Source: Isoetes taiwanensis
Taxonomy: Eukaryota > Streptophyta > Lycopodiopsida > Isoetales > Isoetaceae
Direction: 5' to 3'
DNA length: 64,000 bases
NCBI GenBank assembly: GCA_021234155.1
Contig: JAJEKV010000058.1
Coordinates: 4,970,600 to 5,034,599, forward strand
Shown here: one piece after another, positions 21,835 to 57,724 of the stretch
How the letters are laid out: each line of letters opens with the position of its first letter
How positions within the stretch are numbered: the first letter of the stretch is position 1
Notes under the pieces: generated by a model
Seen by the model: the letters and a program-made list of their open reading frames with translations, nothing else
The model's database searches: none
Told to the model about the DNA's origin: nothing
Translations under genes and position numbers: made by a program

Positions 21835-21978
21835 CTCTCTCTCTCTCTCTCTCTCTCTCTCTCTCTCTCTCTCTCTCTCTCTCTCTCTCTCTCTCTCTCT
21901 CTCTCTCTCTCTCTCTCTCTCTAAGAGAGAGAGAGAGAGAGAGAGAGAGAGAGAGAGAGAGAGAGAGAGAGAGAGAGA
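21835..21978. repeat. (CT)n running into (AG)n, palindromic junction
   Basis: CT repeats from 21835 to 21922 switch directly to AG repeats (21924-21978) through CTCTAAGAGAG. The switch marks one breakpoint of the inverted LINE A/B segment. Confidence 0.95.
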
Positions 21979-24405
21979 TGAAATGAAATGAACTGGTATT
22001 ACGTCTATGGAGAACTCACAGGTCTAGTAGACGATAGTATAACAATTTATAATAAATCATCTGGGAAGTCCACATCAGGGGCTTCCTCAGTGCTCTCATC
22101 CCAATCATCACTACTCTCATCATCTAACAATACCTGTAACTGTTTTACATATCCATCTCTATGTTGTAGAACCTCGATAATAAAGGATCCCACCACATGA
22201 GAGTTTAAGTCAAATAATTGAGTCAAGTCATCTACAGATATACCATATCTAACTCTGACCCCTATATATAGGGCACTTTATCAACACATGATGCTCATCT
22301 TCCACGTCCATGCTACCACAAGCCTTACATGTTCGTCTCTCTCTTGGAATCTCCCCCCAATGTCCTGTTTCAATCCCAAGTCTATGAGAGCTCAATCTCA
22401 TCCGACTAATCACATGTCTCTTTCCTATCGAGATGTTTTCCTGAAGGTGTTTAGCCTGTCTCAAACTTGGATTCATCTGACGCTCATACATGCTCATCTT
22501 CGGTTGCGGGTTCATCCATAGTTTGGCCATCACTTTATGTTTTACCCAATTGTCGATGTCTCCATCATATATGAGGGCTTCATCTAAGGATATATTCCAT
22601 TTATCCAACCATTGTTTGATATCAAAATACCATCCTTGTTCAATACTAGCTTGCATAGCTCGGTATACAACCCATGTGTCATCATGTTGTTTCAACTTTC
22701 TCACATACCTAATGCATCTTACTATAGCTTCCCCTTCCATTGGCATAAGCCCACATTCCGCTAGTAGCATAGGGAATGGGGTTTGCATTTTAACTCCTAA
22801 TTCTTGCTTCAGAAATTTTCGAAGTATTTGCTCAATATCTTCCCAAAGACCCTTGGGCAAGCTTGGTCCCCATGCTTCACATCCATAAAGGACAACAGTT
22901 TGCACTAGAACAAAGAAGAGCTTAATCTTTAAATCCCCATGACCATAAATGTATTTTTCTGCTAAGACTCTGCAAAGAATATAGTGCCTTTAGCCCACCT
23001 TCCACTCGTTGGGCTATGCATGCATTCCACCTGTGATTCCTGTGAACAGTCAAGCCAAGATACTTATATGAATCACATACCTGGACCATGATCCCAACTC
23101 TCTTCCTGTTTAAGTATGCCAACTGTCATGATTTTTGTCTTCTCTAGGTTCACCTGCCTATCCGTGTAAGCACAAAAATGTGCTAATGCATCCAGATGCC
23201 TCTGCATGTTTACTTGTGAACGGGCAAAAATCACCACATCATCGGCATATAACAAGAGCCTATAACAGCATAGCCATGCAAGTATATACCATCACCACCA
23301 TTATCAGAAAGCCACGTATCTAAACTATCAATAAACAAGCCAAATAAGGTGGGAGATAATGGGCATCCCTGTTTTACCCCGATATTACTTGAAATCTTAT
23401 TACTCACATCAAGAGAAAGAGGAAACGATAGTTGAACTAGTACCTTTTCATATAAAGTTCTGACGGCTTCTCTCAAGCCTACAGGTACTGGCAATTGTTC
23501 CATCCTTGCCCACAACTTATCTCGAGGCACCTTATCAAATGCTTTCCTAAAATCAACAAAGAGAATATAGACTGGTTTCTTCTTACCTTTAACAGAGTCC
23601 ATGATCGTCTTTAGCGTGATCAAATGGTCGAGGGTAGACCTTCCTGCTCTAAAACCCGCTTGCACATCCGATCGTGCATTCTCTTTCTCCGCCCACTGAC
23701 TGAGTTTCTTCTCCATAATAGAGGCAAATAACTTAGAGAAGAGACTGCTAACCATCAAAGTGCGGTAGTTATTTGTGTCAGAGGGGTCTCCTCCTTTCAA
23801 AATAGGGACCATACGGTTTGTCTGCCAATCTATTGGAAATCCTTGCCGTAGAGCCGCATTAAGCAGTTTGGCAATTCCAGTATGCATTCTGCTACCTGCC
23901 CATTTTAAAAGCTCACCACCAAGGCCTTGAGCATCTCTTGATTTGCCGTTAGCCAGTCTACTGATTCCCTCAATCACATCATCCTTAGTTAGGATTAGTT
24001 CAGATACTCCCTTCCTCTCTTCTACTATACCAGGCATATGATAAAGTGAACTAACATGTTTCCAAAGTTCATGCGCAGTAAGAGGAATCTCGCTTTGCTT
24101 GGGCTGCTTCATTTTATTCCAGAATTTCTTTGGCTCTTTTAAATACTCTTGAATCAACTCCTCTTGTCTATGTTTGGATATACCCTCTTCTTACGTCGGA
24201 TAGTTCGCCTAAGCTCCTTTCTAAGTTGGTGTTTCATTGGAAATTCAGCATATTGTACCTTCTTCTTCATTTGGTGATTCTCTTCTCTTGAATTTTTTGA
24301 GCAGAAATTTGTATTGAGAATACCATAGGGGCATGGTCAGACTCCATTCTATCCTCTATTATCTTGAAATCTTGCATGCATTCTTTTGCTGATTTTCCAC
24401 ATATT
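21979..24405 (-). mobile_element. LINE A, copy 1 (5'-truncated, decayed)
   Basis: Non-LTR retrotransposon on the minus strand. It starts inside the endonuclease domain and runs through the reverse transcriptase (24157-23231: FVDFRKAFDKV, GVKQGCPLSPTLFGLFID), the YADD region (23255-23073) and the C-terminal Zn knuckle (CKACGSMDVEDEHHVLIKCP, within 22905-22249) to a 3' hairpin at 22002-22033. The tail is TTTCATTTCAT. The frame is broken near the YADD box, after the thumb and near the C-terminus, and a short deletion at about 23095 is absent from copy 2. Copy 2 (48531-51160) is nearly identical and begins at the same truncation point, so the copies arose by DNA duplication rather than by two insertions. 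Both flanks on the sense strand are (CT)n. Confidence 0.9.
22002..22033 (-). other. LINE A 3' hairpin
   Basis: On the sense strand CGTCT...AGACC...AGACG just before the tail. The outer stem (CGTCT/AGACG) is exact; the inner stem is weaker than in LINEs B and C. Confidence 0.65.
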
Positions 24406-24534
24406 AGAGAGAGAGAGAGAGAGAGAGAGAGAGAGAGAGAGAGAGAGAGAGAGAGAGAGAGAGAGAGAGAGAGAGAGAGAGAGAGAGAGAGAGAGAGAGA
24501 GAGAGAGAGAGAGAGAGAGAGAGAGAGAGAGAGA
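24406..24534. repeat. (GA)n tract, about 64 units
   Basis: A pure GA repeat between the 5' end of LINE A copy 1 and the 3' end of LINE B. On the LINE sense strand it reads (TC)n. Confidence 0.98.
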
Positions 24535-24566
24535 AATGAAATGAAATGAAATGTTTATATATAATA

Positions 24567-24595
24567 CGTCTGCAGACCACCAGGTCTATGAGACG
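24567..24595 (-). other. LINE B 3' hairpin
   Basis: The sense strand reads CGTCT-CAT-AGACC-TGGT-GGTCT-GC-AGACG: two stacked 5-base stems around a small internal loop, directly before TATTATATATAAAC and the tail. LINE C and LINE H keep the same design. Confidence 0.8.
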
Positions 24596-57200: not shown

Positions 57201-57466
57201 GCTTCCCGAGATATAAACGCACATGCAAGGTTTGTGGGGAGGATGTGATCGAGGATGAGGTGCACTTATTATTCCATTGTCCAGCATATCAGGCACTGAG
57301 GCATAGACATATGATATCTTCGGAGGTGCCCCTATGGGCGTTCTTTGACATGCCACCTGCGACCGTTGGATATTTCTTAACAGATGTCATGAAAGTGAGA
57401 GAGATGTCTATAAAAGCGTTATACGATCATTTGGATAGTTATGAGAAAGAGGGAGATATAGACTAA
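54206..57466 (+). pseudogene. LINE C ORF2: endonuclease and reverse transcriptase, broken in the middle
   Basis: 54206-55792 opens MWNINGKADEVALLGDIL with endonuclease motifs VETHEHEEHG, LLGDFNGRIAHRQ and TSDHYPIV, then the RT start (EDPKRFWGKLKRRK, GKATDTLGLVAEMIKW). Frame changes between about 55735 and 56090 break the RT fingers and palm (AGFR..STIDH, FVD..KAFDM). 56030-57466 is open with GVKQGCPLSPTLFGIYID, LLLYADDIVLFARS and the Zn knuckle CKVCGEDVIEDEVHLLFHCP. The frame is open for 8 codons upstream of the ATG to the ORF1 UAG. Confidence 0.85.
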
Positions 57467-57522
57467 TGATACCTTTGAAAAGGATCATTAGATGTTTAAA
57501 AAACTGTACGTGTGTTGATGTT

Positions 57523-57552
57523 CGTCTTCTAGACCTGATGGTCTCACAGACG
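57523..57552 (+). other. LINE C copy 2 3' hairpin
   Basis: CGTCT-TCT-AGACC-TGAT-GGTCT-CAC-AGACG, identical to copy 1. Confidence 0.85.
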
Positions 57553-57579
57553 TTAATAAAACATTATCTTATCTTATCT

Positions 57580-57724
57580 TCTCTCTCTCTCTCTCTCTCT
57601 CTCTCTCTCTCTCTCTCTCTCTCTCTCTCTCTCTCTCTCTCTCTCTCTCTCTCTCTCTCTCTCTCTCTCTCTCTCTCTCTCTCTCTCTCTCTCTCTCTCT
57701 CTCTCTCTCTCTCTCTCTCTCTCT
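57580..57724. repeat. (CT)n tract at the 3' end of LINE C copy 2
   Basis: About 72 CT units after CTTATCTTATCTT. Confidence 0.98.

Follow-up and report, generated by a model that had tools for sequence, protein, structure and literature searches.

The question raised by this locus is whether a group of plant retrotransposons selects a simple repeat as its landing site. In a 64,000-nucleotide (nt) stretch of the Isoetes taiwanensis genome (assembly GCA_021234155.1, contig JAJEKV010000058.1, positions 4,970,600 to 5,034,599 of the forward strand; the whole stretch is called the window and is numbered from its first letter), six copies of one kind of long interspersed nuclear element (LINE) are set between dinucleotide tracts, A1 and B on the minus strand and C1, H, A2 and C2 on the plus strand. 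Read on its own sense strand, each of them has CT on both flanks. A CT target, a single orientation, truncation at the tract, a conserved 3′ hairpin, varied tail repeats and chains of elements were all seen directly. As far as sequences can tell, these features are very probably explained by a preference of non-LTR (long terminal repeat) retrotransposons with an APE-type (apurinic/apyrimidinic) endonuclease for (CT)n in one orientation, and target-primed reverse transcription would then start from the (GA)n strand. The LINE copies and the tracts are as follows.

24535 to 29369, minus strand: LINE B, a full-length CT LINE of about 4.8 kb, with a 3′ hairpin and an (ATTTC)n tail adjoining 24534
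21979 to 24406, minus strand: LINE A copy 1 (A1), 5′-truncated within the second open reading frame (ORF2), with a 3′ (ATTTC)n tail
30795 to 35410, plus strand: LINE C copy 1 (C1), with broken frames and a TATCT-type tail
47547 to 48167, plus strand: LINE H, 5′-truncated, first match near ORF2 residue 937, with the hairpin and an ATTTC-type tail
48532 to 51160, plus strand: LINE A copy 2 (A2), inverted duplicate of A1, first match near ORF2 residue 252
52964 to 57580, plus strand: LINE C copy 2 (C2), with a (TATCT)n tail
21835 to 21978, no single strand: tracts at the A1 3′ end, (CT)44 AA (GA)27, with CT on the plus strand at 21835-21922 and GA on the plus strand at 21925-21978
24407 to 24534, minus strand (GA on plus): (CT)64, common to the B 3′ end and the A1 5′ end, in a head-to-tail chain
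29370 to 29517, minus strand (GA on plus): (CT)74 at the B 5′ end
30703 to 30794, plus strand: (CT)46 at the C1 5′ end
35411 to 35580, plus strand: (CT)85 at the C1 3′ end
35771 to 35920, plus strand: (CT)75 after a 3′ fragment (about 35706-35770) of a short interspersed nuclear element (SINE)
47412 to 47546, plus strand: (CT)67 at the H 5′ end
48168 to 48531, plus strand: (CT)n, SINE tail and (TATC)n(CT)n between H and A2, with CT at 48169-48285 and 48370-48531
51161 to 51423, plus strand: (CT)5, tRNA-like SINE and (TATC)n(CT)n downstream of A2, with CT at 51161-51170 and 51394-51423
52627 to 52963, plus strand: a 5′ fragment of C lying between two CT tracts, on the 5′ side of C2, with CT at 52627-52724 and 52842-52963
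57581 to 57724, plus strand: (CT)72 at the C2 3′ end

All 15 CT or GA tracts of the window fall inside 21835-57724, and none of five or more units was found in the window beyond that interval. The tract positions and the coding matches agree with the preliminary description of this DNA, in which A (two copies), B, C (two copies) and H lay between (CT)n with CT on the sense strand. A1 and A2 are inverted duplicates (98-99%) and C1 and C2 are direct repeats, 98-100% identical in what they have in common, so that the six placements represent about four independent insertions, the number given there as well. The elements had further been described as lying directly between the tracts. This holds for the 5′ side, which abuts the tract, whereas on the 3′ side the element's own (ATTTC)n- or (TATCT)n-like tail precedes the CT. 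The 3′ tract of A2 is only (CT)5, followed by the SINE, and that of A1 is (CT)27, followed by a tract of opposed orientation. A segmental duplication with inversion relates 21366-24534 to 46959-51170, and its edges lie in CT tracts, which suggests that CT tracts take part in rearrangements.

The 3′ junctions of related copies were then collected from the genome. The B ORF2 query found at least 41 places (44 matches), B itself at 100% and 40 further ones, and 40 places were fetched. The C query (C-terminal half) gave at least 89 matches, 88 of them besides the query; after removal of C1, of the lowest-scoring matches and, with a few exceptions, of those that did not extend to the C-terminus, 60 were listed, and the first 40 of them were fetched. 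The resulting 80 loci (L numbers below) comprise 20 full B-type copies including B, together with the 3′ ends of 20 further B-type and 40 C-type copies. A 3′ end was visible in 77 of them; L031, L041 and L085 were without it in the stretch fetched, and for L012, L021 and L039, which the initial pattern did not pick up, the end was located by inspection or with a modified pattern. The 3′ end ran into (CT)5 or longer in 61 of the 77, B among them, with a perfect first run of at least nine units in 53. Five more entered CT/CCCT (L022, L064, L066, L067 and L068) and one entered (CT)3 (L048), while (GA)n followed the 3′ end in none of the 77. Like ordinary microsatellites, a few tracts were compound, four of the 61 going on as (CA)n and one as (GT)n. 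Regardless of how the loci were chosen, an exact 22-mer of the 3′ hairpin is present in 166 copies on both strands of the genome; (CT)6 was found within 12-42 nt after it in 48 of the 83 forward-strand copies, and (GA)6 after none of the 166. For (CT)6 the forward strand alone is used, because repeated matches swell the reverse-strand figure.

These counts can be compared with the frequency of the target. The genome (1.66 Gb, both strands) contains 4,476 C-initial tracts of (CT)9 or longer, so that a random 3′ end would meet one with odds of about 1.5e-5; doubling this to allow for T-initial tracts gives about 3e-5. The observed figure is 61 of 77. The earlier judgement that such placements are hard to obtain by chance is thus upheld. 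Among B- and C-type copies, most 3′ junctions lay in (CT)n of one orientation, as had been anticipated, and neither mostly non-CT flanks nor equal use of the two strands was found. The one window copy of LINE D, an L1-type element with poly(A), has its 3′ end near 36121 and not in CT, in line with its earlier description as lying outside CT tracts. No CT or GA tract of five units was present in 18,020 nt from 20 LINE D relatives (901 nt each); since most of these stretches stop short of their own 3′ end, they serve as a background sample only and not as a genome-wide control.

The 5′ side showed the same tendency. By eye, CT was found 5′ of 15 of the 20 full B-type loci, clearly in 11 and less certainly in L014, L021, L022 and L024, and 13 of the 20 had CT on both sides. 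Copies truncated in ORF1 or ORF2 likewise start at the tract edge, as do H and A in the window and many neighbours elsewhere. When 94 tracts with at least 80 nt to their right were scanned for neighbours, LINE coding sequence was found to the right of 33, in sense orientation in all 33 and antisense in none, and 17 of these matches began no more than 6 nt from the tract. Because three LINEs stood behind two tracts each, the 33 matches amount to 30 LINE pieces; nine of these belonged to the probed elements themselves, as their 5′ ends, and the other 21 were neighbours. All 21 neighbours faced the same way as the probed LINE, and 16 of them followed immediately on the tract at a probed element's 3′ end. 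With the probed LINE as reference, 98 tracts read CT and one read GA, the latter belonging to the opposed C1. The same-sense neighbours behind tracts indicate that elements are chained head to tail, as in B-(CT)-A1 and in H-(CT)-SINE-(CT)-A2. An artefact of assembly or recombination, in which CT tracts act as joining or recombining points and bring LINE ends there, might be suspected from the duplications and the inversion of the window, whose edges are at CT tracts. Such an origin is extremely improbable, given that 21 of 21 neighbours share one orientation, that CT follows directly on intact 3′ tails in many contigs and that no N was present in the 30 loci checked.

The 3′ ends have a common layout, consisting of a hairpin (TAGACC..GGTCT inside an outer stem), tail units and then mostly CT. 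The tail units of the 77 ends were ATTTC, TATCT, ATATC, TTC or ATTC, and no poly(A) end of the L1 type was seen among them. In 49 distinct 3′ ends having at least (CT)3 soon after, 93.3% of the hairpin cells were paired, 4 of the 11 pairs were changed on both sides, and the covariation score exceeded all 500 shuffles; 13 of the 14 doubly changed cells were in the outer stem. With the partners slid by +2, covariation was 0.096 compared with 0.107, though just 49.5% of cells then pair. The support from covariation is therefore moderate, because related sequences can beat shuffles and the +2 slide scores nearly as high. The hairpin and the tail repeats fit LINEs of the stringent type, which recognise a specific 3′ RNA structure.

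The way in which tail and tract meet bears on two other explanations of the CT flanks. One is that the element makes the (CT)n itself, the 3′ tract arising from a (CU)n tail on the RNA or from slippage when reverse transcription begins, and the 5′ tract being what an older neighbour left as its tail. The 3′ tracts do continue the tail without a break, and another LINE's 3′ end precedes many 5′ tracts. We nevertheless consider this unlikely, because other 5′ tracts have no recognised LINE 3′ end before them (L011, L013, L015 and L017), with lengths up to (CT)74 at B, because ATTTC, TATCT, TTC and ATTC tails of different families all meet CT, because compound tracts with (CA)n or (GT)n occur, and because 10 of 77 copies stop after the tail with no CT. 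The other is that the endonuclease is unspecific and any nick is used, pairing of the primer with the tail end being what enriches CT. Insertions outside CT exist, and 44 of the 61 ends entering CT allow a reading in which the tail finishes with TC and runs into the tract through it; however, pairing over two bases would promote insertion at GA sites in general rather than at tracts met at odds of about 1e-5, and 12 of the 61 join after ...CAT. An unspecific endonuclease is thus quite unlikely in our view, and a preference of the element for (CT)n is the explanation we retain.

In LINE B, ORF1 (27940-29049, minus strand) encodes 369 amino acids and ORF2 (24586-27939, minus strand) 1117 amino acids with an APE endonuclease, a reverse transcriptase (RT) and a C-terminal CCHC motif. 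The assignment as APE-type follows from the Pfam match to Exo_endo_phos (PF03372, E 3.2e-07), RVT_1 being the only other domain found; when the endonuclease domain was queried alone, only weak matches were obtained, the best being an exodeoxyribonuclease (E 0.0053). The CCHC motif near the ORF2 C-terminus aligns weakly to that of R2, and the roughly 75 residues after it are probably too few for a C-terminal restriction-like endonuclease. At another locus, L081, the CT tract is followed by ATGGCGCACAAG..., and the likely ORF1 start codon comes directly after the tract. Since the likely start codon adjoins it, the tract may serve as a leader or promoter in L081.

Other elements share these tracts. 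The tRNA-like SINE at 51171-51393 has an A box and a B box (by eye) and a (TATC)n tail, with fragments at about 35706-35770 and at 48286-48369, and its 3′ end resembles the LINE C tail by eye. Ten of the 40 copies scored, the window copy included, reach the top score over 200 bp, which suggests recent activity. On the C1 side (35561-36090), a SINE 3′ fragment and (CT)75 lie between two repeats of about 126 bp, each preceded by (CT)n, whereas the C2 side (57701-57900) has a single copy of about 126 bp after (CT)72 and no SINE fragment. Such a difference is what a SINE insertion begun in CT that was already there would leave, possibly with a very long target-site duplication; a tandem duplication is the other possibility. 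The SINE was also considered as an obligate CT partner, which is unsupported on its 5′ side (20 places with CT against at least 124 copies). A further element, E, has two copies in the window.

29518 to 30702, plus strand: element E copy 1, about 1.2 kb, no long ORF, imperfect terminal inverted repeats GCGCCGCCACATG / CATGTGGCCAACGC, GA on the left and CT on the right
51424 to 52626, plus strand: element E copy 2, flanked by CT left and right, with a degraded right terminus and an intact left end

Genome-wide, CTCTCTT stands directly before 80 of 133 exact left ends of element E on the same strand, in a count that covers CT only. Element E, with terminal inverted repeats TGCGTCGGCCACATGC / GCATGTGGCCAACGCA, was also observed in CT tracts at L016, L021, L026, L033, L036, L044, L074, L083 and L089. 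Elsewhere in the window, an open frame at 12903-14246 (plus strand) encodes a plant-type (TAXi) aspartyl protease, and distant relatives of B, about 30-35% identical to it along most of their length, occur at 15258-15599 (minus strand) and 63168-63997 (plus strand), neither of them near CT. Near 15258-15599 there is a related-looking 3′ end with an (AATTC)n tail and no CT after it.

Taken step by step, insertion into (CT)n would proceed as follows. The element endonuclease would nick the (GA)n strand inside the tract, and the GA 3′-OH would prime reverse transcription on the tail RNA, held by the RT through the hairpin. Pairing to UC near the tail end could plausibly help the priming, though not in general, and slippage at the start of reverse transcription may give rise to the variable tail repeats. 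Reverse transcription would then halt anywhere, and the 5′ end would be joined to the remaining (CT)n. As CT would remain on either side of such an insertion, one target would become two, and chains would grow by this route.

Several observations weigh against this account. The 80 loci are the best-scoring places and not a random sample, and not all of them are independent events. Ten of the 77 3′ ends meet other sequence (L012, L020, L024, L025, L035, L056, L058, L062, L077 and L086, the non-CT neighbour of L086 being a SINE that itself ends in CT), CT is absent from both sides of three of the 20 full B-type loci, and 35 of the 83 forward-strand 22-mers are without (CT)6 in the range given above. 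The preference for CT is accordingly not absolute. The tract starts after ...CAT in 12 of 61 cases, so that pairing to UC is only partly borne out. No convincing target-site duplication was found between the 5′ and 3′ flanks of 11 loci; a flank repeat of 73% at L019 was judged an older duplication, and a tandem repeat before the LINE at L017 (unit of about 110 bp plus CT) is not a target-site duplication. No empty and filled pair was found for a LINE, and the sole such pair, C1 versus C2, concerns the SINE fragment, for which a tandem duplication may be responsible. As for the SINE, CTCTCT within 14 nt 5′ of its start was found at 20 places against at least 124 copies, that is, mostly no CT precedes it.

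Landing in CT repeats by LINEs is otherwise known from animals. Kojima and Fujiwara in 2004 reportedly described Kibi and Koshi as (TC)n-specific LINEs of the Tx1 clade with an APE endonuclease, so that both endonuclease and target would be alike, the differences being that the host of the CT LINEs is a plant and that their RT lies outside the pair of human and plant L1. LINE D matched human L1 with 174 bits, whereas LINE B matched R2 with 85 and L1 with 68. In an RT tree of 12 taxa and 302 columns, with human L1, plant L1 (D) and three R2 as references, human L1 and D formed a pair that left out the seven CT LINEs and R2 (SH-aLRT 96.1 / UFBoot 98). Tx1 has been placed within the L1 clade (PMC3747384). 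Since the L1 pair excludes the CT LINEs, kinship with Tx1 is unlikely and an independent origin likely on these RT alignments, into which Tx1 enters by its published placement only. The parallel with Kibi and Koshi drawn in the preliminary description thus stands for the behaviour, a (TC)n target in one orientation, and not for descent.

Other target-specific elements differ in further respects. Togen, described as (TG)n-specific fish LINEs grouped with NeSL-related families (PMC4640811), likewise uses a dinucleotide microsatellite; the repeat is another one, and NeSL-type elements have a restriction-like endonuclease whereas the CT LINEs have APE. The same paper gives target-specific LINEs chiefly from early-branching, Tx1 and R1 clades (PMC4640811). 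The plant L1 of the same genome, LINE D, also has an ORF2 with RT and differs from the CT LINEs in its poly(A) end, its position outside CT and its closeness to human L1. SART/TRAS and Zepp, which target telomeres, similarly form head-to-tail arrays in a simple repeat, whereas the CT LINEs use dispersed CT microsatellites. No report of a plant LINE specific for microsatellites was found in searches of one open-access library, and in the accessible part of the Isoetes sinensis genome paper the word LINE occurs once, in a figure legend.

The CT LINEs would be a plant case of microsatellite-specific targeting that apparently evolved outside L1/Tx1, with many copies and a target that is simple and testable. 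Tentatively, and with slightly more doubt than confidence, we propose that Isoetes harbours a guild sharing (CT)n as a safe harbour, composed of LINE families outside L1/Tx1 with independent CT targeting, some SINEs and element E, in which regenerated targets and growing chains may largely shape the CT landscape. The system would show how a retrotransposon can avoid genes and yet keep its target in supply, and it would offer a natural set of related endonucleases and tails for studying how RNA ends are matched to the primer strand.

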